From the IMG/VR virus record IMGVR_UViG_3300044630_003285, positions 1 through 21,472 of that record: a DNA stretch of 21,472 bases. The stretch is one strand, 5' to 3'. Positions 2 to 17,900 of the stretch are shown here, piece after piece. Both the position numbers and the translations under genes were made by a program. This stretch comes from a virus. Numbering within the stretch: the first letter of the stretch is position 1; each line of letters begins with the position of its first letter. The notes under the pieces are model-generated. The model made no database searches. It was not told where the DNA came from and was given only the letters and a program-made list of their open reading frames with translations.

Positions 2-3000
2 GTTAATTTACCAGCGGCAACATTTATAGCAAGTGGTTCGGCAACTGCATCTTTTCAAGAAGGTGATTTATTGGTTAATACAAATACTAGAATTCAAGGT
101 AATTTAATAGTTGATGAATCTATTTTTGCTGACCAAATTATTGTAAATATAGTTTCATCTTCGATAATATTTTCATCTGGTTCAAATATATTTGGTAATA
201 CAGACGAAAATATACAACAATTTACAGGATCTGTAAGAATACAGAGTGAATTAATTGGTAACAATATTACCGGTTCATCATTTACTGGTTCATTTACTGG
301 TTCTTTCTTTGGAGATGGTAGAGATATATTTAACCTACCTCAAGCAACAAAATTATCAACAGGCTCAATAACCGCATCGGTAACACCTGATTTTGGATTT
401 AAAGTAGAATCGGTAGATAGTGGTTCACAATTTACAGGTAGTGTTGCTATAACTGGTAGCCTAAGAATAACAGCAACATCGGGTTCATTGATATTAGAAT
501 CTTCATCGGTATATTATGGCGAAGGTACTTATTTAAGAAATATTCCAAGAAATGCGTTATCAGATGATGCTTTAATATCTACTGAAATTAAATCTGGATC
601 GGTAACCGCATCAGTATCACCTGATAGGGGGTTTGTTGTAAAATCATTAGAATTTGGCGCATATTTTAGTGGTAGTATCACTTCAAGTGGAAATATTCAA
701 GTTCAAAGCGGCTCGTTCTTTAGTGGTAGTGGTCAGGGATTATTTAATATTCCACTATCTGCTTTAAATATAGATTCATTAGTAGCGACAAGAATAGCTT
801 CCGGTTCAGTAACCGCATCCGTATCTCCGGATTTTGGATTCAGAGTAATATCAACTGAAAGTGGTTCTCAATTTACAGGTAGCTTATTTGTAAGTGGGGC
901 AAGGGGCATTGAAATCGTATCGGGTTCATCTTATTCTGGTAGTGGTGCTAGGTTATTTGATATACCTGTATCGGCTTTGAAAGATTTAGACCTTAGTAGA
1001 ATTAAATCTGGGTCCGTAACTGCATCAATTTCTCCAGATAAAGGATTTGTTGTAAATACATTTTCCACATTTAGTGGAAGTATGATAATTACTGCATCGG
1101 CTACATACTACCCATCAGAATCAATTGAAACGGTATTTGATGTAACCACCGATGGTGTTTTATCATACAATTTTACAGGCGCTGCAGTTGGTCCAAATCC
1201 AACACTAACATTGGTTAGAGGTATAACTTATGTTTTTAATTTAAATGTAAGTGGACATCCTTTTCAAATAAAAACATCAAAAGTATCCGGTACCGGTAAT
1301 TTGTATAATGATGGTGTAACTAATAATGGAACGCAGGTTGGAACTCTATTATTTACAGTGCCGCTAAACGCACCAAATACACTTTATTACAACGACCAAT
1401 TTTTATCGGCTTTATCAGGAACTATTAATATAGTAGATGCGTTATTGCAAAAAGATGGGGGAGTATTAATTTCGGGCAGTTTGCATGTAAGTGAGGTTAT
1501 TAGAGCAAGAGAATTTACCGGTTCTTTTAGTGGTTCATTTTTTCAAGGTGATGGAGGTGGGTTATTCAATATCCCATTCTCAGCATTTACCGGTGATTCT
1601 TCTAGAATTGCTAGTGGTAGTGTTACCGCATCCGTATCTCCGGATTTTGGGTTTATAGTTGTATCTACTGAAAAGGGTTCTCAATTTACTGGAAGCATAT
1701 CCGTATCAGGTTCAATTGATGTAGTTAATATTACGGCAGTCTCTATGAGTGCGTTTGAAGTTAGTGGTTCATTTAAAGGAGATGGTAGTAGATTAACAAA
1801 TATAAATGTACCACCTCAAGTAGCAACACAAATAGTATCTGGATCCGTAACTGCATCTGTTTCTCCTGATTCTGGATTTATTGTAACATCAGTTGATTTT
1901 GGGTCCACTATAATAGGAAATACGGTAATTAGTGGTAGTTTAATTGTAAGTGGTGCTAGAGGTATAGAAATCGTATCTGGTTCATCTTATTCTGGTAGTG
2001 GTGAAAGATTATTCAATATACCTAGAGCAGCTTTAACTCCGGACGCATTATTATCTACCGAAATTAAAAGTGGTAGCGTAACTGCATCAGTATCGCCTGA
2101 TTTTGGGTTTAGAGTAATTTCGGTTGAAAGCGGTTCTCAATTTACGGGTTCTTTATTCGTAAGTGGTTCTAGAGGTATAGAACTTGCATCCGGTTCATCT
2201 TATTCTGGTAGTGGTGCTAGATTATTTGATATACCACTATCTGCATTAGCTGATTTAGACCTTTCAAAAATATTTAGTGGGTCTGCAACGGCATCAATTT
2301 CTCCTGATAGAGGGTTTGAAGTATTTGCGGCAACATCTAACTTTTCTGGTTCAGTATCGGCATCCGTATTTAGTGGTAGTGGTGCGGGGTTATTTGATAT
2401 TCCATTCTCAGCTTTATCAGAAGAATTAAAAAGAATAGCAAGTGGTAGTGTAACTGCATCGGTATCTCCAAATGAAGGATTTAAAGTAGAATCTTTAGAA
2501 AGTGGTTCACAATTTACTGGTTCTTTATTTGTAACCGGTGGATATATTAGAGTTGAAACAGGTTCATTCTTTAGTGGTAGTGGTGCCGGATTAAATAATA
2601 TTCCTCGTTCGGCATTAACCTTAGACGCATTAATATCTACTGAAATTAAAAGTGGTAGTGTAACTGCTTCGGTTAGTCCTGATGAAGGATTCAAAGTAAT
2701 TTCTGTACAAAGTGGTTCACAATTTAGTGGTAGTTTATTTGTAAGTGGTGGATATATTAGAGTAGAGACAGGTTCATTCTTTAGTGGTAGTGGTGCTGGA
2801 TTATCTGATATTCCGGAATCAGCATTATCATTTAAAATTAATAGAATCGCAAGTGGTAGTGTAACGGCATCTATTTCTCCTGATTATGGATTAAGAGTAA
2901 ATACATTCTCTACAATTAGTGGAAGTTTTATAGTATCATCATCGGCAAGAGAATTGGCATATTATGATATAGATACTGTATTTAATGTGACAAATGCTGG

Positions 3001-6000
3001 AAGTAGTGCGTATAATATAAGTAATAGATTAGTAAGTGGTTCAAACCCAACTTTAACTTTAGTTAGAAATGTAGAATATGTATTTAATGTAAATGCTTCT
3101 GGACATCCATTTTGGATTAAAGAAGTTAGTAGTACTGGTACTAATAATTCGTATGATTATTGGGTAACTAATAACGGCGACGATGTTGGTGTTATAACAT
3201 TTTTAGTTTCTGGAAGTGCACCTAATACATTATATTATAATTGCCAATTACATGGTTCAATGGCGGGTACTATTAACGTAGTTGATGCATTATACGTTCC
3301 AGCTGAAATAAAATTAATTGGTGATACAAAAGTAATTGGAGCAGTAACTGCATCAGTATTTAGTGGTAGTGGTAAAGGATTATTTGATATTCCTTTCTCA
3401 AACATTACTGGTGATGCGGTAAGAATCGCTAGTGGTAGTGTAACTGCATCGGTAGCACCTAATTTTGGATTCAGAGTAGCATCATTTGTAAGTGGTTCTG
3501 ATTTTAGTGGAAGTATTAGAATTGATTCGTCATCTTTCATTTATTCGGAAGGTACGTTTTTAAGAAATATTCCACGTTCGGCATTAACCGAAGATGCATT
3601 AGCCTCATCTGAAATCAAATCGGGTTCAGTAACAGCATCGGTATCACCGGTATTTGGATTCGTAGTAACAACGCCGTTTACATCATCGGTAAGTGAAAGT
3701 TTCTTTTTTACACAAATAGCATCTCAATTTACGGGTTCAATATCCGTATCTGGTAGTTTATTTGTAAATGATACAAGCGGAGGACTATTTATAAATTCAT
3801 CATCATTTATATTTGCCGATGGAACATATCTTAGAAATATTCCTCGTTCAGCATTAACCGAAGATGCATTATTATCATCATTTATTGCATCTGGTTCGGT
3901 AACAGCATCGGTAAGTCCTGATTTTGGGTTTAAAGTAATAGCAACTGATATATTTAGTGGTTCTATTTTTGGTTCACAATTTACCGGAAGTGTTGATGTT
4001 AGTGGTAGCGTTAGAGCGTTTACATTCATTGGAGATGGTTCTCAATTAACAAATGTACAAGCAGCAGCATCTCCATTGATAGCAAGTGGTTCGGCAACAG
4101 CATCAGTAGCAAGTGGAGAGAGATTTATAGTAACAACCGGTGCAACTGGAAGTGGAGTAGATACTCAATTTGGTTCTCAATTTACCGGAAGCGTTGACAT
4201 TAGTGGTAGTATTAAGGCTCAATTTATATTGGGAGATGGTACTTTTATAACAAATGTACAAGCAGCAGCTGCACCATTCATTGGTAGTGGTTCTGCAACA
4301 GCATCGGTAGCAAGTGGAAATACATTTGTAGTAACAACTGGAGCTACTGGCTCAGCTATCGGTTCTAGATTTACTGGTTCAATTGATGTTAGTGGTAGTA
4401 TTAGGGCATTCAATTTTGTAGGAGATGGTTCTCAATTAACAAATGTACAAGCATCAGCAGCACCTTTGATAGCAAGTGGTTCGGCAACGGCGTCTGTACA
4501 AAGTGGAATACAATTTGTTGTTACAACCAAAGGTAACTTTTCACCAGTTGGTTCAAATTCTGGTTCTTATTATGGTTCTGTATTTACTGGTTCTGTAATT
4601 ATTAGTGGGTCAATATCAGCATCTCGTTATGATGGAGATGGTGGCGGATTATTTAATATACCAGCATCAGCATTAGAAGATTTGCAATTAGATAGAATAC
4701 AATCTGGTTCTGGTAGAGCAATAATAGATCCAGAACAATTAGATGTAAATGTACCAATAACAGCGGCACTTTATATAGGTGATGGTGGTGGATTATTTAA
4801 CATTCCTGCAAATGCATTGCAAGACCTTAAATTGGATAGAATTATATCCGGTTCGGTTGAAGGCGTGATTTCTCCAAACAAAGGATTGGAAGTAAATACA
4901 AATGTAAGAATATTTTCCGGTTCATTGACTGTAAGTGGAAGTATATTTGTAAGTGGAGGAAATGTAATAGCAGCATCTGGTTCTTCATTCATTGGAGATG
5001 GTAGCGGATTAAGAAATATCAATATTGCTAATTTGGCATTTGAAACTTCTCTATTACAATCTGGATCTGTAACCGCCGAAATTTCTCCAAATTTAGGATT
5101 GGTTGTAAATACCTCAGCATCTATACAGGGTGATTTGAACGTATTGAATAAAATATTGGTAAATAATATTACAGCAAGTAATGTTATTAAATCTCAATTA
5201 TTTACCGGTTCATTCTTAGGTACATATAATTTCCAAGGAGTAGGACCAACTGCATCAGCAGAATATGATATTTTAAGATTTAATCCAACACAAGGATATT
5301 TCATACCACAACCTGAAACTTCATTAACCGAAACGGTATCATTCAATAATGTAAGTACATTAACAATCGTACACAATTTAGGAATTAGATATCCAATGGT
5401 TCAGGTTTACGCCACCGGTTCGGAAGACCAAATTTTACCTGGCACAATAAAATCAATTGATGATGATACTATTCAAATTCTATTTAGTGGATTGACTAGT
5501 GGGCATGTTGTAATTGGTAGTGGTGGTTCTTTAATTAATGGTAGTATAAATGGTGATAGAGTATTTGGTGAAGTGTTATCCGCATCATATGCGAGAAGGG
5601 CAACACTTGCAGATGCTGTGACTGGATTTGATTCGGCATCATTGGTATCGTTATCTGCATCTTTGGCAAACGCAAATGCATATGTAAGAAATGACCAAAC
5701 GGCATCAATGGCCGTATTTAGTGCGGTAAGTTCATCTTACGCATTAACAGCATCATACGCATTAAACGCATCGCAAGGCGGAGGAACTGAATTGCGTATA
5801 TATCAAACAAGTTCATTAGTAAAAGCACAGGTAGGAAAAATTCATTTTACTGGCTCTGGTGTTGATGTAGTAGCATCTGGTTCGGATGGTGTATTGGTAA
5901 CTATTTTAGGTGGTGGTGGCGCTGGTGCTTCTGCTCAAACTGCATCTTATATTCTTTCGGAAGATGTAGATGGTCCATTAGGAATGAATAGTGTACAATT

Positions 6001-9000
6001 TGCAGTATCAGCACTTACCGCATCGTTTGCGTTAACTACACCAACATCTGATACATCTTCATTCTTACAAATTAACACAGACCAAACAATAAATGCATCG
6101 TTAGTAATTAGTGCTAGTTTAGGTGTAAGTGGTAGTTTCTTTCTAGGTAATTTAACATCTGGTTCATCAGAAGATGTTGTTGTTTGGAATAGTACAACAA
6201 AACGATTAGAAAGAAGAAATATAGCAGCGGCAGTGGGTTCATCTGGAACATCTGGTACATCAGGAACTTCAGGTGAAAGTGGTTCTTCAGGAACATCAGG
6301 TACAAGTGGAACAAGTGGTTCTTCAGGAACATCAGGTACAAGCGGTATCGATGGAACATCGGGTACATCCGGAACAAGTGGTACATCCGGTACAAGTGGC
6401 ACTTCGGGTACTTCTGGTACAAGTGGTAGTGATGGTTCTTCTGGAACATCGGGAACTTCCGGCACAAGCGGAACGTCTGGAACATCAGGAACTTCTGGTA
6501 GTTCTGGAACAAGCGGTACAAGTGGCACGAGTGGTACATCTGGTACATCTGGTACATCTGGTACATCAGGTAGTTCCGGCACAAGTGGTACTTCCGGTAC
6601 AAGAGGAACGTCTGGAACATCAGGAACTTCTGGAACATCAGGAACTTCTGGAACATCTGGTAGTAGTGGTACATCCGGTTCAACCGGCTCAGCTGGTTCA
6701 TCGGGTACATCAGGAACTTCTGGTACATCTGGAACAAGTGGAACTTCAGGAACTTCAGGAACTTCAGGTAGTGTGGGTACTTCTGGTACTTCTGGAACTA
6801 GCGGTACAAGTGGCACGAGTGGGACATCAGGAAGTGATGGAACATCGGGAACGTCTGGTTCAAGTGGAAGTGGTGGAACATCGGGTACTTCCGGAACGTC
6901 TGGTAGTGGTGGTGAAAGCGGCTCATCTGGTACATCCGGTAGTGGAGGTTCTTCAGGAACATCAGGTACATCAGGTATAAGTGGTTCAAATGGAACATCG
7001 GGAACTTCAGGTACTTCAGGTACATCTGGTTCTACTGGTGAAGCGGGTTCATCCGGAACATCGGGCACAAGTGGTTCATCAGGAACGTCAGGTTCAACCG
7101 GTTCATCGGGAACCTCTGGTACTTCTGGCTCATCTGGTACTTCCGGTACAAGTGGTAGTGATGGTACATCCGGTAGCTCAGGCACATCAGGCACATCAGG
7201 AACATCTGGTACTTCCGGTACAAGTGGTAGTGATGGAACATCGGGTACTTCGGGAACTTCTGGAACATCTGGCTCATCAGGAACTTCTGGAACATCTGGA
7301 ACATCTGGTACATCAGGAACTTCAGGAACTTCGGGTAGTGATGGTTCATCAGGAACTTCTGGAACATCTGGCACTTCTGGTACTTCTGGTACCGAAGGTT
7401 CAGCAGGAACATCAGGAACTTCAGGTATAGATGGAACTTCTGGCACATCGGGTTCAAGTGGTACTTCTGGTAGTGATGGAACTTCTGGTACATCAGGTAC
7501 TTCAGGAGAAAGTGGTTCATCGGGAACAAGTGGAATAAGTGGTTCATCAGGAACTTCGGGTACCTCTGGTTCAGATGGTACATCAGGAACATCGGGAACT
7601 TCGGGTACATCAGGTATAAGTGGTTCGGATGGAACTTCGGGTACCTCTGGAATTGACGGGTCATCCGGAACAAGTGGAATAGATGGTACATCAGGAACTT
7701 CGGGAACATCCGGTTCAGATGGAACTTCAGGAACATCAGGAACTTCAGGAACATCAGGATTAGATGGAACATTCTTCGGTTCATCAGGTACATCTGGTAC
7801 TTCAGGAACATCAGGTACTAGTGGGTTGGATGGTAGCAGTGGAACTTCAGGTACCTCAGGCACATCAGGATTAGATGGAACTTTATTTGGAAGTAGTGGA
7901 ACTTCTGGAACTTCAGGCATAGATGGAACTTCTGGTACATCTGGAACTTCTGGTACATCAGGAACTAGTGGAATTGATGGCTCATCCGGAACATCTGGAT
8001 TAAATGGCACATTCTTTGGTAGTAGTGGAACATCAGGTGAAAGTGGAACTTCGGGTACATCCGGAGAAAGTGGTTCATCGGGAACAAGTGGAACTTCTGG
8101 TACATCAGGATTAGATGGAACTTTATTTGGAAGTAGTGGTACTTCGGGAGAAAGTGGTACTTCAGGAACTTCAGGTACTTCAGGAGAAAGCGGTTCATCG
8201 GGAACTTCAGGTACTTCGGGAACATCGGGATTAGATGGAACTTTATTTGGAAGTAGTGGTACATCCGGAGAAAGTGGAACTTCTGGTACATCAGGAGAAA
8301 GTGGAACTTCTGGAACTTCTGGCACAAGCGGAACATCAGGATTAGATGGAACTTTATTTGGTTCATCAGGAACTTCGGGAACAAGTGGTACATCAGGTAC
8401 TTCAGGAGAAAGCGGTTCATCGGGTACTTCCGGTACAAGTGGAACATCAGGATTAGATGGAACTTTATTTGGAAGTAGTGGAACATCGGGTACATCTGGA
8501 ACATCAGGCACTAGTGGATTGGATGGTAGTAGTGGAAGTTCAGGTACCTCAGGCACATCAGGATTAGATGGAACTTTATTTGGTTCATCGGGAACTTCAG
8601 GAACATCTGGTGAAAGTGGCACGAGTGGAACATCAGGAACTTCAGGAACATCAGGAACTTCAGGAACGTCAGGATTAGATGGAACTTTATTTGGAAGTAG
8701 TGGAACATCAGGAACTTCGGGTACTTCAGGTACAAGTGGAGTTTCCGGTTCATCAGGAACAAGTGGAACTTCAGGAACATCAGGATTAGATGGAACTTTA
8801 TTTGGAAGTAGTGGTACATCAGGTACATCGGGAACAAGTGGAATAAGTGGTTCATCTGGTACATCTGGAACTTCCGGTACAAGCGGAACATCCGGACTAG
8901 ATGGAACTTTATTTGGAAGTAGCGGTACATCAGGAATAAGTGGAACTTCTGGCACATCTGGCTCATCTGGAACTTCTGGTACATCTGGAACAAGCGGAAC

Positions 9001-9874
9001 ATCCGGATTGGATGGGACTCTATTTGGTTCATCTGGAACAAGCGGAACATCTGGAGCAATGGGGTCAACGGGTTCTTCCGGAGAAAATGGTTCATCAGGA
9101 ACATCGGGTACATCGGCACCTGGATTTTCATCAGGTACTTCTGGTACTTCTGGCACTTCTGGTTCTACCGGAAGTAGTGGTACATCCTTTTTTGGAGTTA
9201 CATCCGGAACTTCTGGTACATCCGGAACAAGTGGAATTGATGGTTCATCGGGAACATCCGCACCCGGATTCAGTTCGGGTACATCAGGTACAACGGGTTC
9301 ATCCGGAACATCGGCACCTGGTATAACATCTGGAACATCCGGAAGTGGTGGTTCTTCGGGAACATCTGGATTATTATTATTAACAGGTACAACTAATGAT
9401 GGATTACTAACATATACAAACGCACCTGCAGGCGCTAACGTAGAATCTAATATAACTTTTGATGGGTCTACATTAACAATAGTTGGTAATACAAATCAGA
9501 CAGGTGATATTACATTAACTGGAGGATTGGATGCTAGTACATATTTAGAAGCAACTGCGTATAGAGAAATTTATAGTGATTTAGCAACTGGTGGAAGTGT
9601 TGCAATAGATTGTTCAACTGCAAATAATTTTAGAAGACAATTTAACGCAACGGCCACAGTAACATTCACTAACGCACCTGCTTCTAAGGCATTTGGATTT
9701 ACATTATTGACTGTAAATGCGGGGGCGTATGTGATTACATGGCCAGCATCGGTTAATTGGGCAGGTGGTATTCAACCCGTATTAACATCATCCGGTGAAG
9801 ATGTGTTAGTGTTTTATACATTTGATGGTGGTACAAATTGGTATGGATTTACAATAGCAAAAAATTTAAGTTAA
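2..9874 (+). CDS. Giant modular tail fibre 1, collagen-like (5' partial)
   Basis: This is probably a virion fibre for host attachment. The frame is open to the left edge, and the first codons (IASGSATAS...) already match the internal repeat, so the gene starts upstream; the TTG at 71 is not a real start. At least 3,290 residues are visible. Domains in order: about 21 Ser/Gly-rich beta modules (2-5240) with two inserted cupredoxin-like domains (1118-1441, 2963-3289); an 'HNLG.RYP.VQVY' domain common in phage tail proteins (about 5342-5515); an Ala/Ser-rich stretch (5576-6235); a Gly-X-Y tract (6236-9370); and a C-terminal domain (9371-9871) with ITWPASVNWAGG and DGGTNWYGF, a frequent phage fibre ending. 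There is no signal peptide or membrane segment in the visible part. The stop is 4 bases before the next start. The fibre assignment is from domain recognition; its place on the virion is inferred. Confidence 0.9.
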   Translation, partial: VNLPAATFIASGSATASFQEGDLLVNTNTRIQGNLIVDESIFADQIIVNIVSSSIIFSSGSNIFGNTDENIQQFTGSVRIQSELIGNNITGSSFTGSFTGSFFGDGRDIFNLPQATKLSTGSITASVTPDFGFKVESVDSGSQFTGSVAITGSLRITATSGSLILESSSVYYGEGTYLRNIPRNALSDDALISTEIKSGSVTASVSPDRGFVVKSLEFGAYFSGSITSSGNIQVQSGSFFSGSGQGLFNIPLSALNIDSLVATRIASGSVTASVSPDFGFRVISTESGSQFTGSLFVSGARGIEIVSGSSYSGSGARLFDIPVSALKDLDLSRIKSGSVTASISPDKGFVVNTFSTFSGSMIITASATYYPSESIETVFDVTTDGVLSYNFTGAAVGPNPTLTLVRGITYVFNLNVSGHPFQIKTSKVSGTGNLYNDGVTNNGTQVGTLLFTVPLNAPNTLYYNDQFLSALSGTINIVDALLQKDGGVLISGSLHVSEVIRAREFTGSFSGSFFQGDGGGLFNIPFSAFTGDSSRIASGSVTASVSPDFGFIVVSTEKGSQFTGSISVSGSIDVVNITAVSMSAFEVSGSFKGDGSRLTNINVPPQVATQIVSGSVTASVSPDSGFIVTSVDFGSTIIGNTVISGSLIVSGARGIEIVSGSSYSGSGERLFNIPRAALTPDALLSTEIKSGSVTASVSPDFGFRVISVESGSQFTGSLFVSGSRGIELASGSSYSGSGARLFDIPLSALADLDLSKIFSGSATASISPDRGFEVFAATSNFSGSVSASVFSGSGAGLFDIPFSALSEELKRIASGSVTASVSPNEGFKVESLESGSQFTGSLFVTGGYIRVETGSFFSGSGAGLNNIPRSALTLDALISTEIKSGSVTASVSPDEGFKVISVQSGSQFSGSLFVSGGYIRVETGSFFSGSGAGLSDIPESALSFKINRIASGSVTASISPDYGLRVNTFSTISGSFIVSSSARELAYYDIDTVFNVTNAGSSAYNISNRLVSGSNPTLTLVRNVEYVFNVNASGHPFWIKEVSSTGTNNSYDYWVTNNGDDVGVITFLVSGSAPNTLYYNCQLHGSMAGTINVVDALYVPAEIKLIGDTKVIGAVTASVFSGSGKGLFDIPFSNITGDAVRIASGSVTASVAPNFGFRVASFVSGSDFSGSIRIDSSSFIYSEGTFLRNIPRSALTEDALASSEIKSGSVTASVSPVFGFVVTTPFTSSVSESFFFTQIASQFTGSISVSGSLFVNDTSGGLFINSSSFIFADGTYLRNIPRSALTEDALLSSFIASGSVTASVSPDFGFKVIATDIFSGSIFGSQFTGSVDVSGSVRAFTFIGDGSQLTNVQAAASPLIASGSATASVASGERFIVTTGATGSGVDTQFGSQFTGSVDISGSIKAQFILGDGTFITNVQAAAAPFIGSGSATASVASGNTFVVTTGATGSAIGSRFTGSIDVSGSIRAFNFVGDGSQLTNVQASAAPLIASGSATASVQSGIQFVVTTKGNFSPVGSNSGSYYGSVFTGSVIISGSISASRYDGDGGGLFNIPASALEDLQLDRIQSGSGRAIIDPEQLDVNVPITAALYIGDGGGLFNIPANALQDLKLDRIISGSVEGVISPNKGLEVNTNVRIFSGSLTVSGSIFVSGGNVIAASGSSFIGDGSGLRNINIANLAFETSLLQSGSVTAEISPNLGLVVNTSASIQGDLNVLNKILVNNITASNVIKSQLFTGSFLGTYNFQGVGPTASAEYDILRFNPTQGYFIPQPETSLTETVSFNNVSTLTIVHNLGIRYPMVQVYATGSEDQILPGTIKSIDDDTIQILFSGLTSGHVVIGSGGSLINGSINGDRVFGEVLSASYARRATLADAVTGFDSASLVSLSASLANANAYVRNDQTASMAVFSAVSSSYALTASYALNASQGGGTELRIYQTSSLVKAQVGKIHFTGSGVDVVASGSDGVLVTILGGGGAGASAQTASYILSEDVDGPLGMNSVQFAVSALTASFALTTPTSDTSSFLQINTDQTINASLVISASLGVSGSFFLGNLTSGSSEDVVVWNSTTKRLERRNIAAAVGSSGTSGTSGTSGESGSSGTSGTSGTSGSSGTSGTSGIDGTSGTSGTSGTSGTSGTSGTSGTSGSDGSSGTSGTSGTSGTSGTSGTSGSSGTSGTSGTSGTSGTSGTSGTSGSSGTSGTSGTRGTSGTSGTSGTSGTSGTSGSSGTSGSTGSAGSSGTSGTSGTSGTSGTSGTSGTSGSVGTSGTSGTSGTSGTSGTSGSDGTSGTSGSSGSGGTSGTSGTSGSGGESGSSGTSGSGGSSGTSGTSGISGSNGTSGTSGTSGTSGSTGEAGSSGTSGTSGSSGTSGSTGSSGTSGTSGSSGTSGTSGSDGTSGSSGTSGTSGTSGTSGTSGSDGTSGTSGTSGTSGSSGTSGTSGTSGTSGTSGTSGSDGSSGTSGTSGTSGTSGTEGSAGTSGTSGIDGTSGTSGSSGTSGSDGTSGTSGTSGESGSSGTSGISGSSGTSGTSGSDGTSGTSGTSGTSGISGSDGTSGTSGIDGSSGTSGIDGTSGTSGTSGSDGTSGTSGTSGTSGLDGTFFGSSGTSGTSGTSGTSGLDGSSGTSGTSGTSGLDGTLFGSSGTSGTSGIDGTSGTSGTSGTSGTSGIDGSSGTSGLNGTFFGSSGTSGESGTSGTSGESGSSGTSGTSGTSGLDGTLFGSSGTSGESGTSGTSGTSGESGSSGTSGTSGTSGLDGTLFGSSGTSGESGTSGTSGESGTSGTSGTSGTSGLDGTLFGSSGTSGTSGTSGTSGESGSSGTSGTSGTSGLDGTLFGSSGTSGTSGTSGTSGLDGSSGSSGTSGTSGLDGTLFGSSGTSGTSGESGTSGTSGTSGTSGTSGTSGLDGTLFGSSGTSGTSGTSGTSGVSGSSGTSGTSGTSGLDGTLFGSSGTSGTSGTSGISGSSGTSGTSGTSGTSGLDGTLFGSSGTSGISGTSGTSGSSGTSGTSGTSGTSGLDGTLFGSSGTSGTSGAMGSTGSSGENGSSGTSGTSAPGFSSGTSGTSGTSGSTGSSGTSFFGVTSGTSGTSGTSGIDGSSGTSAPGFSSGTSGTTGSSGTSAPGITSGTSGSGGSSGTSGLLLLTGTTNDGLLTYTNAPAGANVESNITFDGSTLTIVGNTNQTGDITLTGGLDASTYLEATAYREIYSDLATGGSVAIDCSTANNFRRQFNATATVTFTNAPASKAFGFTLLTVNAGAYVITWPASVNWAGGIQPVLTSSGEDVLVFYTFDGGTNWYGFTIAKNLS
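1118..1441 (+). other. Cupredoxin-like domain 1 of fibre 1, copper ligands lost
   Basis: About 108 residues sit inside the fourth repeat module. They contain NPTLTLVRGITYVFNLN, SGHPFQIKT and NTLYYNDQFLSALSGTINIV. The pattern parallels the second domain at 2963-3289. The first histidine (codon 1256-1258) is kept. The positions that are Cys, His and Met in domain 2 are Asp (1394-1396), Leu (1403-1405) and Leu (1412-1414) here. The fold is assigned by motif recognition. Copper binding is not expected, so this copy is probably structural or a binding domain. Confidence 0.65.
2963..3289 (+). other. Cupredoxin-like domain 2 of fibre 1, copper ligands intact
   Basis: About 109 residues are inserted in the eleventh repeat module. 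They contain NPTLTLVRNVEYVFNVN, SGHPFWIK and LYYNCQLHGSMAGTINVV. The ligand set expected of a type-1 copper site is present: His (3104-3106), Cys (3242-3244), His (3251-3253) and Met (3260-3262), with the last three spaced C-x2-H-x2-M. This matches the order in small blue copper proteins, though the His-Met spacing is shorter than in plastocyanin. The fold and copper binding are inferred from motifs. Confidence 0.7.
7757..9034 (+). repeat. 12-copy 111-base (37-residue) super-repeat marked by GLDGTLFGSS
   Basis: Twelve copies of GL(D/N)GT(L/F)FGSS begin at 7757, 7868, 7997, 8108, 8228, 8339, 8450, 8561, 8672, 8783, 8894 and 9005. Nine of the eleven spacings are exactly 111 bases; the other two are 129 and 120, longer by whole triplets. 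Each marker carries one extra Phe between Gly-X-Y triplets, so 37 residues equals 12 triplets plus one. The first 23 bases of the marker are identical in eight copies (7868 and 8108 to 8783). The two outermost copies at each end (7757 and 8894/9005), and 7997, differ. Confidence 0.95.
9116..9331 (+). repeat. Four periodic six-residue interruptions at the end of the fibre 1 Gly tract
   Basis: Four hexapeptides replace Gly-X-Y triplets: APGFSS (9116-9133), FFGVTS (9188-9205), APGFSS (9260-9277) and APGITS (9314-9331). They start 72, 72 and 54 bases apart. Each has glycine in its third position instead of its first, and the GTS register then resumes. They hold the only prolines of the tract. Confidence 0.88.
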
Positions 9875-9878
9875 TATT

Positions 9879-10781
9879 ATGGGAATAGCAAGAAGACTAG
9901 CAGAATCAGATTCAACACAAGCATTTCCATTTGTGTTTCAAATTACAACAACATCGGCTAATACTATATTTACATGCCCAATCACCGATTATGGTGGGCT
10001 TACTCCACAATTAAATATAAATTGGGGAGATAGTAGTTCATCGCCTTTAATTACGTCATCTTCATCACCAAATAGAATTCATACATATGTTTCAGCTGGT
10101 ACATATACAATTACTATTAGTGGATTTATGCCAGGTTTTCAAGTAAATAATAACGTAGGAATAAGAAGTTTAATAACAAGTATTACACAATTTGGTACAG
10201 TAGGATTAAGAACATTAAATTTTTATGGGTGTATAAATATAACTTCTATACCAAGTAGTGCATCATTAAGTGCAGTTGGTGGATATGATGGTTTAAATGA
10301 AATATTAAGTTTTTCAAATTTTATGAATGGTACATCTATAACATCCATACCCGCTGATATATTTGATTTTTCACCTAATGTAACATCATTTGCTAGTGCA
10401 TTTGCAACAATTAATACAATATCAACTGTACCAACTGGATTATTTGATACTGCGGTAAATGTATCATCTTTTGCATCCTGTTTCTTTGCGTGTGCGAGTT
10501 TAACTTCCGTACCATCAACTTTATTTGACCTAAATATCAATGTAACAAGCTTCTCTGGTACATTTAGAAATTGTAGAGCATTAACAAATGTATTACAATT
10601 TACATTTAATACAGCGGTAACAACATTCTCACAAGTTTATAATATGAGTTCAACTTCAAATGCTTTAGTAGGTACTGCTCCTGAATTATGGAATAGAGTA
10701 CCAACACCTGCTGGAACTGATGCATTTAGAAATTGCACCGGTTTAACAAACTTCGCATCAATACCACCAACATTTACTTAA
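9879..10781 (+). CDS. PKD-like plus BspA-type LRR (DUF285) protein, putative phage adhesin
   Basis: The protein has 300 residues. Residues about 16-85 look like a PKD-type beta-sandwich, with INWGDSSSS followed by HTYVSAGTYTITISG. From about residue 86 there are irregular leucine-rich-like repeats of the BspA/DUF285 type, with units such as SITSIPADIFDFSPNVTSF, TVPTGLFDTAVNVSSF and LTSVPSTLFDLNINVTSF about 24 residues apart. Cys residues fall in repeat turns (FASCFFACASL, FRNCRAL, FRNCTGL). There is no signal peptide, which fits an intracellularly assembled virion protein. It starts 4 bases after fibre 1 with no Shine-Dalgarno sequence and ends 1 base before the chaperone-like gene. That position suggests a fibre tip or receptor-binding subunit. 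The domain calls are by motif; the adhesin role is inferred from context. Confidence 0.8.
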   Translation: MGIARRLAESDSTQAFPFVFQITTTSANTIFTCPITDYGGLTPQLNINWGDSSSSPLITSSSSPNRIHTYVSAGTYTITISGFMPGFQVNNNVGIRSLITSITQFGTVGLRTLNFYGCINITSIPSSASLSAVGGYDGLNEILSFSNFMNGTSITSIPADIFDFSPNVTSFASAFATINTISTVPTGLFDTAVNVSSFASCFFACASLTSVPSTLFDLNINVTSFSGTFRNCRALTNVLQFTFNTAVTTFSQVYNMSSTSNALVGTAPELWNRVPTPAGTDAFRNCTGLTNFASIPPTFT

Positions 10782-10782
10782 T

Positions 10783-11226
10783 ATGTATTTACGAATTATA
10801 AATAATGAAATCAGTTATCCTTATACAATTAAGGATTTAAAAGCTGCGCATAGAAATATTACATTCCCAAATGAAATTGGAGAAGAAACTATGACTCAAT
10901 TTGGTTTATATGAAGTTGAACAAACTCCAAAACCAAATGATTACACAAAAAATATTACCGAAGGAACGCCAATATTAGTGGATGGTGTATATTATCAAAA
11001 TTGGGTTCAAGTAAATGCATCCGAAAGTGAAATAGATTACAGATTAGAAAATCAATGGTTTGTTGTTAGAGAAATTCGAAACGAATTATTATCAGAGTGC
11101 GATTGGACGCAATTATCGGATATTCCATCCGAAACAAAAGTAATTTGGTCTGAATACAGACAATCTTTAAGAGATATCACATCTCAAACTAATCCATTTA
11201 ATATAACTTGGCCGGTTAAACCTTAA
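10783..11226 (+). CDS. Tail fibre assembly chaperone-like protein
   Basis: The protein has 147 residues. The N-terminal part (about 12-52: YPYTIKDLKAAHRNITFP then MTQFGLYEVE) and the C-terminal part (about 95-147: VREIRNELLSECDWTQLSD, WSEYRQSLRDITSQ, NPFNITWPVKP) match the pattern of phage tail assembly chaperones, as I recall the Phage_tail_APC family. These proteins help fold or attach tail fibres and are usually coded next to the fibre. Here the gene begins one base after the PKD/DUF285 protein's stop and lies between the two giant fibres, so its client could be either fibre or the adhesin. It is acidic and soluble with no membrane segment. The family call is firm; the client is unknown. 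Confidence 0.85.
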   Translation: MYLRIINNEISYPYTIKDLKAAHRNITFPNEIGEETMTQFGLYEVEQTPKPNDYTKNITEGTPILVDGVYYQNWVQVNASESEIDYRLENQWFVVREIRNELLSECDWTQLSDIPSETKVIWSEYRQSLRDITSQTNPFNITWPVKP

Positions 11227-11901: not shown

Positions 11902-14900
11902 ATGGAATATTTAGGCGGTAACCCTAATGGTTTAAATCAACAAACTAAAGATAAAATTTCTTTATTTGTAAGCGGGAGTAGAATAGCTAATTTCTCATCT
12001 CAATCGGTAGATGTAGTTGGTAATTTTAGTGCATCTAAGATTCAAACTGATGAAATTGATTCTTTTGGTAATAATCCGCTTCAAATAAACACAAATACAC
12101 AAATTAGTGGTTCGATTAATATTTCATCATCAATATCCGCATCTTTATTTAGAGGCGATGGTGGTGGTTTATTTAATATAAGTGCCGCATCTATTGGTGA
12201 TTTAGATAGATTAAAATCTGGTTCGGCAACTGCAATAATTTCTCCAAATAAAGGACTAATAGTTAATACTGACTTAACAGTAGCAGGTACAATAAATGCA
12301 ACTGAATTAAAAGTAATTTATATTTCATCATCTATAATTTATTCATCTGGTTCAAATAAATTTGGTGACTCTCAACTCGATAAACAAGAATTCACAGGAA
12401 GTGTTGGGATAACAGGTTCACTATCATTTGGAGATGGTTCATTGCAACAAGATGGTAGTACAAATGAAGTTTTAGTTTATAATTCATCAACTGGTAAAAT
12501 TGGTATAAAAACCGCAGCGGCAACTTCCGGTACATCAGGAACTTCCGGTACATCTGGTACTTCGGGTACAAGTGGAACATCTGGTACATCTGGTACTTCG
12601 GGTACAAGTGGAACATCTGGATTAGATGGTTCTTCGGGAACATCAGGAACTTCTGGTACATCCGGCACTTCAGGAACATCAGGAACTTCCGGAACATCTG
12701 GAACATCTGGTTCTTCCGGAACATCGGGAACATCAGGCAGTAGTGGAACTTCTGGTACAAGTGGTTCATCAGGAACATCTGGTACTTCTGGTTCTACTGG
12801 TAGTAGTGGTACAACCGGGTCATCTGGTACTTCTGGTTCATCCGGAACAAGTGGCACGCGTGGAACATCAGGAACTTCTGGAATAAGTGGTTCATCTGGA
12901 ACATCGGGATCAAGAGGTACATCGGGAACTTCTGGAATAAGTGGAACATCAGGAACAACAGGCTCAGCCGGTACATCTGGTATAAGTGGTAGTAGTGGTA
13001 CATCTGGCTCTGGAGGAACTTCGGGAACTTCGGGAACATCTGGAATAACGGGAGCAGGTGGTGGAACTGGTTCGGCCGGTTCTGCAGGAACTTCCGGTAC
13101 ATCAGGAACTTCCGGAACATCGGGAATAACTGGAGCTGGCGGAACTGCAGGTTCATCGGGAACATCAGGCACATCTGGTACATCGGGAACAAGAGGAACT
13201 TCTGGAACTTCGGGAGTAAGTGGAGCTGGTGGTGGTAGTGGTTCAGCGGGTACGTCAGGTTCATCGGGAACTTCGGGAACTTCTGGAACATCAGGAACTT
13301 CTGGAACATCTGGAAGCAGTGGTTCATCGGGTACTTCAGGTACTTCTGGATTAGGGGGTTCATCAGGAACTTCCGGTACATCTGGAACTTCTGGTACAAG
13401 TGGAGCACAAGGTTCTTCGGGAACATCGGGAACTTCTGGTACAAGTGGTTCGGCAGGAACTTCTGGAACTTCTGGTAGTGGAACTTCTGGTACATCGGGA
13501 ACATCAGGAATAAGTGGAACATCTGGTACATCTGGAATAAGTGGTACATCGGGAACATCTGGTACAAGTGGAAGTGCCGGTACATCTGGAATAAGTGGTA
13601 CATCGGGAACTTCTGGCACAAGTGGAACTAGAGGAACATCTGGTACATCTGGAATAAGTGGAACTTCTGGAACTTCAGGAAGTAGTGGTACATCAGGTTC
13701 ATCTGGAACAAGTGGAACTCGAGGAACATCGGGAACATCAGGAATATCTGGCACATCGGGAACTTCTGGTTCAAGCGGTACATCGGGAACATCTGGCACA
13801 AGCGGTACTAGAGGTACATCTGGCACAAGTGGAAGTAGTGGTACATCGGGTTCTTCTGGCACAAGTGGAAGTAGTGGTACATCAGGTTCTGCTGGTACAT
13901 CCGGATTATTGGCATTAACTGGTACAACTGATAATGGTGTAATTACTTTAAACGGAAGTGCACCAAACGGGACAGTAGAATCAAATTTAACTTTCAATGG
14001 TACTCTATTAACAGTAACTGGTAACGCTACAATTACTGGTGACCTTACTGTAAGTGGTACTACAACATATATTAATACAACAACTTTAAATGTAGGTGAT
14101 AACATCATTACATTAAATGCAGATATTGGAGCATCAACGGCACCAACTGAAAATGCCGGCATAGAAATTAAGAGAGGTAATGCGGCAACAAAACAATTCA
14201 TTTGGAATGAAAGTACGGATAGATGGTCATTTGATGATACTATAAACGTATCAGGTAATGTAGTTCTTAGTGGTACAATTGATACTGGAATAGGTGCAAC
14301 TGAGGTTTATTTAATGGACCAAAACGTAAGAACTACCGATGCTGTAACATTTGCAACCGTTAATACCGGACAAGGTGCTAATGAATTATATGCAATGGAC
14401 CAAAATGTTCGTACAACGGACGCAGTAACATTTGCAACTGTAAATACTGGACAAGGTGCAAATGAATTGTACGCAATGGACCAGGCGGTTCGTACAACCG
14501 ATGCTGTAACATTTGCAACCGTAAATACCGGACAGGGGGCTACGGAAGTTCATTTAATGAATCAAAATCTTAGAACAACCGATTCACCTACATTTGTAAA
14601 CGTAACATCAAACTTAAGTGGTATAGCAACATCGGCTAATCTACTAAACGCATTGGCTAACTATGGTTGGAATGCAGCAACCTTACCAACTTCATTTGGA
14701 CAAGGTATAACAAACGCATTTGTTTCATCGGCAGAAGGATTTCCAAATTATGGTTCTGTAATGATGATGAGAACATATGCTGGTGGTGGTGGTTCATTAC
14801 AATTATATACACCATATAGTTCTGTTTATGGTGGTACTAGATTACAAGCTCGTTTTGGTGATTATGGTGTAAGTAGTGGTAACTCTTGGACTGCATGGAG

Positions 14901-17900
14901 ATTGATATTAGATAGTGTAAGTGACCCTTATGCATATAATATGAATCAGTATGTGAGAACAACTGATAATGTAACATTCAATCAGGTAATATCTTCAACT
15001 GGAGTTTATGCGGCCGGTACATCTGGATTTTATAGTACAACATATGCTGGTAATGTTAGAAATCCAATTTGGAGATTTGGAAATGCCGATGGATATGGTA
15101 TAAGTTACTTCCAAGGAAATGCTGGAGCTTATAGTAACTTAGATACCATTGGTATTCATATGGGAACAGCAACAGCTGCAGGTTCTCAATGGCAGTTCAA
15201 TCAAGCAGATAATTCATTTAGGTCATCAGGTCCAATATACTTTACAAACTATCTTTATGGTAATAGTAAGCAAGCATTAGATACAACTGATTCTTATTTA
15301 AGATTAAACCAAGCTAATCAATTTAGTAGTGGTACTTATACCCCATATAACTTTAGAGCAGATGGTACAATTTATGTAGGTGGTACATCATACTATATTA
15401 ATAGTAGTACATCTCGCTTAAATGCACTCGAAACATCAGATAGAGTTGTAATTGGCGGAAACTTTAGCAATCAAGCATATAGTTCGGTAGCTTCTACTAG
15501 ATTACATTTTGGTGGAGGTGATAGTGATGCAAATTCAAATTATTACATAGGTACTAACTTAGAAAACTTTGGAGGTAATTATACTAAGTTAGATTTAAGA
15601 TGGCACACTGGTATTCGTATGGGTGCACAAGCTGGCTATGGTGGGGTTAGGATATTTGATTCAGAAGATTTAGGAACTAGATTATTTTCAGTTGGTGAAG
15701 GTGATACGCATGTAAGGGTAACAAATAATTTATATGTTGCAAACAATTTATTTTTTACCAACTATCTTTATGGTAATAACAAACAAGCACTAGACACAAC
15801 CGATGGTTGGTTGAGATTAAACCAGGCTAATCAATTTAGTAATGGTACTTATACTCCGTATGTATTAAGAACGGATGGTGGATTTGAATCATATGGTTCA
15901 ACAAGATTAAGAAATAATTATAGTAGTGGAGCAACCATTATATTAGATTTAGATAACGCATCTCATTATGGTTTAATAGATTTTAGAGAAAATAATTCAC
16001 ATAAAGGATTTTTTGGATTAGGTGGTACATCACAATCATTTGGAACATATGCAGCATATACCGCAGATGGTTTCAGTTGGAATCACGATGGCGCTGGTAA
16101 AATGATTATTTCCAATAGAGGTGCATCAAAAAGAATTGATTTAAATACAGGAACTGAAGGTAATTCCAATTTTACTACATTAAGAATGACAAATCAGGAT
16201 GTTTTTATAACTCCTGATTCCAATACCGGTAATTTACGTTCACCACTTTTTTATATTCAAAATGATACAACTTATTTATGGAATAGTAATAGAATAGTAG
16301 TAAACCAAGTAACATTCCCTTATAGAGAATGGGATTTTGGTTGGGGAGCACATGGTACTGGAAGTGGTACACAACCAATGTCATTTAGAATGTGGGATAA
16401 CTACACTCAAGGTGGAGCACCATCTTCATATGGTACATTGATTGAATATTATGGGTTGGTAGGTCACCAACATGACCAATTTTATTTCTATCAGGGTGAA
16501 ATTCTTCATAGATACGGGTGGTATGGTACTACAAACTGGCAAAGTGGATGGAGAGCAATGTTGCATGCTGGAAACTATTCTGGATACGCAATTCCTGTTT
16601 CTGGTGGTATAAATATGACCGGTTCTTATGGTTTGAATGATAATAGATTATACCTAAGAACTAATGGTGATACAAACCACTTTTTATGGAATGCAGCCGA
16701 TGATTGGGAAGAATTGGTATTTTATTCTGGAACTGGATTTAGAATAGCAGGTAGTAATGGTGGTAACTATGCACAAATAACCACATCAGGTATCAACGCC
16801 ACAAATATGACCATTGGTGGTGCACAGGTTTGGTATAATAGTGGTGGCTGGATGGCCGATTTCGCTTCTTATGGATTTACTAGACATTGGGGCATTAATG
16901 TTTCTGGTGGAGAGTTTGTTACTTTATATGCAAGTGGACAAGTATCTACATTAATTGATGGTAGTTATTTTGCTGGGGAAAATAATGGATTCTTCTCATT
17001 GAATGGTTCTAATCAATACACATCAAGAGTAGGTTTCTCTAATAGTGGTGGTGGTGTTGCAAACTTCAACGCACCAATCCGAATCAATACAAACAATAAC
17101 ATTTATTTAGATTACAACTACGGACAATCTATTGTGGGGGTTTATACATCTACTAGATACCAGGGTGTATTCGCAATGGGTGATTCATATAAATTGGCAA
17201 TTGATGGTTCATCTCCTGGTTCTTTATATGGTTTAGCTTGGTCACATCCAAACGCTGGAGGACAAGCATCATTGGGTTTAAATGACCACGGCTTGTTGGT
17301 AATGAACTATGGTACTACATTTGCGGGAATTTCTTCTAGAATTTGGGCAAGAGACCAAATGAACGCACCAATTTACTATGATAGAAATACTGCATTTTAT
17401 TTGGATGGTGATTCTAATTCTAGATTAAATCACGGAAGATTTGTTGGTTCATCTGGATATTATTCATTATTATTAGGACCTGATACATTGGCAACGAATG
17501 GTTCGACTTCAGTATATCCTGATGGTGATAGATATGGATTGGTATTGAATGCACCATATTATCCACATCTTTATATTAATTCATACGCAGATAGTGGTAA
17601 TACAACGCATGGTGGTGTTTTATCATTCACTGGTATTAAAACTGCCGGCGGATTTAGAAGATGGGGCATTGGTATTGCAAACCGAAACCCGGATGAAATG
17701 AGTTTTGGATGGTATGACAACAACTATAACCCACATTATGGTGTGGGAATTAACTGGTCATATCCAGCATCTGTTTGGGTTGATACTGGTAATAATTGGT
17801 ATGCTAGAGGTTCAATGAGAGCACCAATATTCTATGACCAAAATGATACTGGAAGGTATATGGACCCCAACGGACAATCATATATTGTTAATTTATGTGT

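Follow-up and report, generated by a model that had tools for sequence, protein, structure and literature searches.

The fibre gene examined here encodes, as read from its sequence, a (Gly-Thr/Ser-Ser)n shaft that is essentially proline-free and of regulated total length. In the corresponding fibre family the distal 40% of this shaft, beside a C-terminal domain (CT), carries 7-15 copies of the motif [DN]-G-T-(F/L/Y/M)-F-G-S-S (the marker), one every ~12-14 triplets. The explanation that we favour, with modest confidence, is that of a proline-free trimeric collagen-like shaft in which in-register hydrophobic joints segment the distal part and help to lock the register; the structure and function of these joints are what we infer from the arrangement. 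Collagen-like phage fibres and interrupted collagens are already known, and it is the conserved periodic +1 hydrophobic motif that sets this fibre family apart.

The fibre gene and its genomic context

The window (the whole stretch of 21,472 nucleotides that was analysed) starts within the tail-fibre ORF, which is open at its 5' edge and covers positions 2-9874 (+ strand, frame +2). Its N-terminal part (2..6235, +) contains ~20 beta-type repeats (GSVTASVSPDFGF...GSQFTGS) and two inserted domains that belong to phrog_677, a baseplate-wedge/tail-fibre connector family (E=2.4e-41); by tblastn this part matches cyanophage fibres. The phrog_677 copies lie at ~1118-1410 and 2918-3290 and the family is one of Synechococcus/Prochlorococcus phages; a domain that looks like it also interrupts the GTS arrays of two other loci (L015 and L017). 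According to the triplet parse, the N-terminal part is followed by a Gly-X-Y array of 1045 residues (6236-9370, +), which is covered by the Pfam domain Collagen (PF01391, E=3.6e-106), has GTS or GSS in three quarters of its triplets and consists of: a proximal rod, a marker part and four 9-residue cassettes. In the rod (6236..7756, +), glycine recurs at every third residue over ~169 uninterrupted triplets ahead of the first marker (mainly GTS/GSS, without markers), which makes the array collagen-like. The distal cassettes (9107..9331, +) each swap out two glycines while the frame is kept: GTSAPGFSS (9107-9133, +), GTSFFGVTS (9179-9205, +), GTSAPGFSS (9251-9277, +) and GTSAPGITS (9305-9331, +); the prolines of the array in the window are found only within them. 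In many related arrays, kindred cassettes (GTNAPGFSS, GTTPPNFTS) occupy positions 0.89-0.98 of the array length and form the sole proline-bearing part. The gene ends with the beta-rich CT (9371..9874, +), the diagnostic partner of marker arrays according to the structure prediction, the Foldseek search and the CT scan described below.

The genes that follow include: an ORF of 300 aa (9879..10781, +; phrog_9915, weak PKD/LRR matches), possibly encoding a fibre-associated protein, the gene for a tail fibre assembly chaperone (10783..11226, +; Phage_tail_APC, PF16778, E=4.4e-16), and the gene for a second long fibre with a C-terminal Peptidase_S74 domain (11902..19158, +), which provided a natural control: its (GTS)n array (12529-13905) holds no markers and a single -1 break. 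A tail sheath protein is likewise encoded downstream, the nearest relatives of which are those of an uncultured phage of 484 kb and of Microcystis phage Mel-JY01 (~38% identity). The setting (phrog_677 N part, APC chaperone, Peptidase_S74 fibre, sheath) is one of tail and tail-fibre genes and, because of the sheath gene, the source virus can be classed as a contractile-tailed phage. An antisense ORF (5947-9156, -; 1069 aa, VPDVPEVP...) was rejected as a gene, since reversed GGN ACN TCN codons give no stops in its frame.

Twelve one-residue interruptions in the window

The array in the window contains twelve markers, all on the + strand and confined to its distal 40%: GLDGTFFGSS at 7757..7786 (marker 1), GLNGTFFGSS at 7997..8026 (marker 3), and GLDGTLFGSS at 7868..7897, 8108..8137, 8228..8257, 8339..8368, 8450..8479, 8561..8590, 8672..8701, 8783..8812, 8894..8923 and 9005..9034 (markers 2 and 4 to 12). 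TFF thus replaces TLF in 2/12 (7757, 7997) and GLN replaces GLD in 1/12 (7997). Each marker is a G3G interruption (GTLF-G), with three residues between glycines and hence +1 to the triplet frame; there is no compensating break between markers and the frame advances by one at every marker. A previous sequence-only reading of this DNA had described twelve GLDGTLFGSS-type markers with spacings of 111, 129, 111, 120 and seven times 111 bases, and these positions and spacings proved exact. The array around the markers turned out larger than in that reading, which mentioned neither their confinement to the distal 40% nor the four cassettes. The triplet parse likewise bore out the one extra residue per marker beyond the Gly-X-Y frame, uncompensated in the window, and with it the notion of a quasi-regular, conserved interruption that adds one residue per unit and spaces hydrophobic residues regularly. 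When the inner ten markers were placed at random within the same span, none of 500,000 placements was as even as the real one (smallest spread 7 triplets, observed 2).

Conservation of the marker in related viruses

A scan of a viral collection with a degenerate marker pattern recovered at least 120 stretches. The clustered matches listed comprise at least 55 arrays, each with no fewer than three markers, and 487 intervals, of which 88.5% span 34-46 residues (modes 37, 40 and 43); the range among the matches listed is 31-52 residues. These arrays were pooled with those from the CT scan into 64 non-redundant viral arrays (among the matches listed), whose 581 intervals measure 12.98 ± 1.31 triplets, with a CV of 0.10 vs 1.0 for a memoryless process. 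The phenomenon evidently reaches beyond this contig, and the earlier reading understated its reach. The relatives did not support the proposal that the exact 111-base period is a functional feature, as their intervals vary over 31-52 residues (mostly 37/40/43) and about a quarter of them hold a cancelling -1 break; irregular spacing in related phages, which that reading itself had named as a refutation, thus counts against the strict super-repeat, while a looser joint every ~13 triplets was strongly supported. The joint is a mark of this family, which is present in dozens of further viruses; they keep its rough spacing and not the exact one, and the strict 111-base spacing, with its seven unbroken 111s, is a lineage trait.

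The -1 breaks, which cancel the +1 shift, were found in ~1/4 of the intervals of the marker-selected set: never in intervals of 1 mod 3, always one in those of 0 mod 3, and two in those of 2 mod 3. They read GA, GL, GI or GV and in some lineages lie 5-8 triplets past the marker, near mid-interval. Because they undo the shift in some intervals, the marker, rather than the net frame shift, is the conserved element. Another type of element, an in-frame Gly-to-Ala/Ser change of six residues (GTSATS type), clusters at 0.09-0.24 of the relatives' arrays, in the proximal rod.

In a control scan of plain (GTS)n arrays any marker was present in 2/94 clusters only, and GTS arrays therefore do not carry the marker as a rule. 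Since many (GTS)n arrays, including that of the second fibre, are without markers, these are not required for a rod of this kind, a point against the favoured explanation. Viral contigs often contain very long GTS arrays that lack markers (e.g. L206, with 770 GxSG steps, and window positions 12529-13905). The marker or GTS pattern was absent in the nearest named phages tested (candidates: Microcystis Mel-JY01, LR756508, Roseobacter CRP-603, and further Limnohabitans DC31, P-SSM2 and Flavobacterium immuto), and no isolate carrying the marker was found in our searches. In genome contigs the pattern gave seven single matches in unrelated bacteria and archaea, which were taken as chance; the array as tblastn query gave no match, the query probably being masked as low complexity. 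A description of the motif was not found in the open-access PMC literature and could still exist elsewhere.

Nearly all complete marker arrays close with one and the same C-terminal domain of ~112 residues, the CT. An alignment of the CT alone is blind to the marker and its use as query therefore removes the circularity of a motif-based search. In the best 80 of the 222 loci thus recovered (30 clusters), markers were present in 30/30 CT-bearing clusters. The 29 full-length arrays among these best 80 of 222 loci contain 302 one-residue interruptions, of which 302/302 follow D/N, 295/302 read GT[FYLM]F and all are located at 0.46-0.98 of the array. The frame-breaking G3G interruptions, 12 in the window and 302 in the 29 relatives (same best 80 of 222 loci), are a feature shared with the interrupted collagens (C1q, MBL, type IV). 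AlphaFold2 predicted the CT as a beta-rich domain in which most of the last ~100 residues have a pLDDT above 90, and Foldseek found the predicted fold to resemble many viral fibre ends; a significant PDB match to it was not found.

Total shaft length

The summed shaft (rod, marker span and tail) measures 1053 ± 39 residues over 26 clusters when the outlier L314 is left out, where independent parts would give a spread of 99 (P < 5e-5, shared ancestry ignored). With the outlier (1353 residues) included, the spread is 68 vs 108 (P = 0.00035, shared ancestry likewise ignored). Such near-constancy points to a control of fibre length. Fully extended, at 0.286 nm per residue, the shaft would measure ~300 nm. 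The three parts vary and anti-correlate, while their sum is nearly constant, in the window (6236-9370) and the arrays L253-L330.

Presumed trimer geometry and proposed mechanism

Over 7644 rod triplets of the fibre family, proline occupies ~0.02% of the X/Y positions, and the canonical stabilisation of collagen is thus lacking. With so little proline, a triple helix of the usual collagen type is expected to be weak here, which speaks against the favoured explanation, and other polyproline-II/polyglycine-II packings are possible. AlphaFold2 on a single chain was uninformative for the marker array (pLDDT 28), and a PDB sequence search matched collagens by composition only. Glycines per cross-section were counted along the real sequence in a model of a staggered homotrimer. 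Each marker cost a single level without glycine, after which the packing was normal again. The sequence-only reading had suggested a one-residue stagger along the fibre, which the level count led us to reject: as every chain of a homotrimer carries the same insertion, the offset between chains is unaltered past each marker and nothing accumulates in the model.

The same model was used to displace one chain, with the marker-free rod and the second fibre as controls. A slip by 3 residues leaves the rod at 1.8 defects per 100 levels (1.8 before) and raises the marker part from 2.8 to 8.5, and a displacement by one 37-residue unit costs the marker part next to nothing but the rod 65 per 100 levels. 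Rod and markers thus jointly penalise every slip tested, since the former slip hits the markers and the latter the rod. The penalty is arithmetic on the sequence; the fibre may use it during folding.

In the mechanism that we propose, three identical chains would run in register with a one-residue stagger, so that their three extra residues and aromatic side chains would come together in one short cross-section at every marker. This would create a local hydrophobic joint with the chains in register, similar to a coiled-coil stutter or stammer, beyond which the triple helix would resume with normal stagger. Over the distal ~110-120 nm the joints would act as bendable points between stiff segments of ~10-12 nm each. 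They could also serve as keys for the register: a GTS rod without features could shift by whole triplets without penalty, and the non-triplet markers would make slipped registers costly while the helix zips from the CT. What would matter, then, is that joints are present, what their sequence and approximate pitch are and how long the shaft is as a whole; the exact unit length would be uncritical. In MBL a GQG interruption was measured to bend the collagen helix by up to 85 degrees, and the same paper reports a kink from an extra residue in C1q (PMC9898670); because interruptions of the same size have these effects a hinge at the markers is reasonable by analogy. That the motif is nearly invariant favours a specifically packed joint over an arbitrary flexible linker.

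Comparison with known fibres and collagens

The prophage protein EPclA of E. coli O157:H7 is a trimeric collagen-like side-tail protein with a C-terminal trimerisation domain (PMC3368898). It shares with the present fibre a Gly-X-Y domain in a phage tail protein, the trimer being seen for EPclA and presumed here, but its recombinant chain is of 47 kDa, whereas the shaft described here has ~1045 residues, is almost pure GTS/GSS, free of proline and provided with a conserved periodic +1 motif. The collagen stalks of C1q and MBL are alike in that their triplet frame is broken, by one residue or by a G1G element, with a bend as the result (PMC9898670). They have a single break per chain, whereas 7-15 identical breaks with a hydrophobic motif and a near-regular pitch occur here in a presumed homotrimer. 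C1q is a heterotrimer. Type IV and other non-fibrillar collagens have many interruptions along a long triple helix as well; these vary in length and sequence, whereas here one sequence lies behind the +1 breaks (GT[FYLM]F in 295/302, best 80 of 222 loci). Phage fibre proteins that are glycine-rich without a proline-dependent helix are S16 gp38 and Pam3 gp24 (PMC9608196), in which short strands are folded into a tip, in contrast to the strictly triplet-periodic, much longer shaft with a separate C-terminal beta domain found here. The upper fibre gp68 of Staphylococcus phage 80alpha has a predicted collagen-like stretch too (PMC7048315), but of only ~30 residues, unlike the long shaft here.

The family offers hundreds of aligned natural examples of a triple helix that tolerates, and apparently uses, a one-residue insertion, and lets one ask how proline-free repetitive Gly-X-Y chains reach register and fixed length. 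Should the joints function in this way, they would be ready-made elements for the design of segmented collagen-like materials, and the marker would be a sequence signature for a widespread group of uncultured aquatic phages. We put forward only tentatively the wider idea that in proline-free viral collagen-like shafts a dedicated, conserved hydrophobic non-triplet motif, repeated at a near-constant pitch, acts both as register key and as joint, in a shaft whose total length would be actively kept constant; such a segmented molecular ruler is not known to have been described for any collagen.

Alternative explanations and sequence evolution

The markers could be passive hinges only, i.e. flexible interruptions of the usual kind, like those of type IV collagen, C1q or MBL, in which the sequence is of minor importance and the spacing sets the flexibility. 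Triple helices do bend at interruptions (PMC9898670), the marker spacing is kept only approximately and other interruption types are also present (-1, Gly-to-Ala, 9-residue), but generic hinges would drift in sequence, whereas [DN]GT[FYLM]F was retained in 295/302 cases of the marker-blind CT scan (best 80 of 222 loci), and the motif is restricted to the distal half; we regard this explanation as rather unlikely. It is more doubtful still that the ~12-triplet segments are strands of an intrachain polyglycine-II sandwich with the D/N-G marker as turn. Models for such a folded-back bundle exist in Salmonella S16 gp38, Pam3 gp24 and the snow-flea antifreeze protein, D/N-G favours turns, the segments are of similar length (CV 0.10) and without proline, and glycine-rich strand lattices are known in phages (PMC9608196). 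However, the number of markers is even in 18 arrays and odd in 11, which would swap the side at which the CT exits, segments of 36 residues far exceed known PGII strands, and an uninterrupted 507-residue rod of the same composition precedes them. We give equally little credence to repeated binding sites, by which surface aromatic patches would dock the fibre on the phage tail, a partner protein or host glycans. The conserved motif, its near-regular spacing and its position beside the distal domain would suit such a role, but no partner is known and the spacing jitters between neighbours. Moreover, the rise is ~0.286 nm per residue and a phage tail ring measures ~4 nm, so that 37 residues would span ~10.6 nm, which is no multiple of the ring.

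Finally, the pattern could be a mutational by-product, in which slippage and unequal crossing-over copied a chance interruption and the spacing is without function. Intervals of one array do resemble each other in length a little more than those of different arrays (P = 0.0006), equal neighbours are somewhat over-represented (P = 0.015) and arrays turn over faster than their flanks: in the comparison with L254 the flanks are 88% identical and the array only ~70-74%, nearly every interval differs (mostly 40) and the total length is 1036 vs 1051 despite these changes. The filler codons, however, are not homogenised, their identity being 0.454 at an offset of 37 residues, 0.326 at 74 and ~0.35 elsewhere. 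As they are hardly more alike at 37 than at other offsets, a recent tandem DNA duplication (minisatellite) was rejected as source of the 111-base pitch. Marker codons have an identity of 0.62 within arrays vs 0.565 between them, and with so slight a difference a function of the marker at the DNA level was rejected too. Protein changes are strongly under-represented in the marker region, which differs from that of L253 (98.8% identity to the window along 12.3 kb) by 8 synonymous changes and 1 non-synonymous one. Together with the occurrence of the same motif and pitch in all CT-bearing clusters (best 80 of 222 loci), this speaks against a by-product; the marker-blind scan already largely refutes it and we consider it very improbable. 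The only indel between the window and L253 comprises 9 bases; it falls within the marker region, where it shortens an interval of 40 residues to 37. The Ser-Ser codons after each marker of the window (7757-9034) come as linked pairs, AGT AGT or TCA TCA/TCN, which suggests that short blocks have been exchanged between units.
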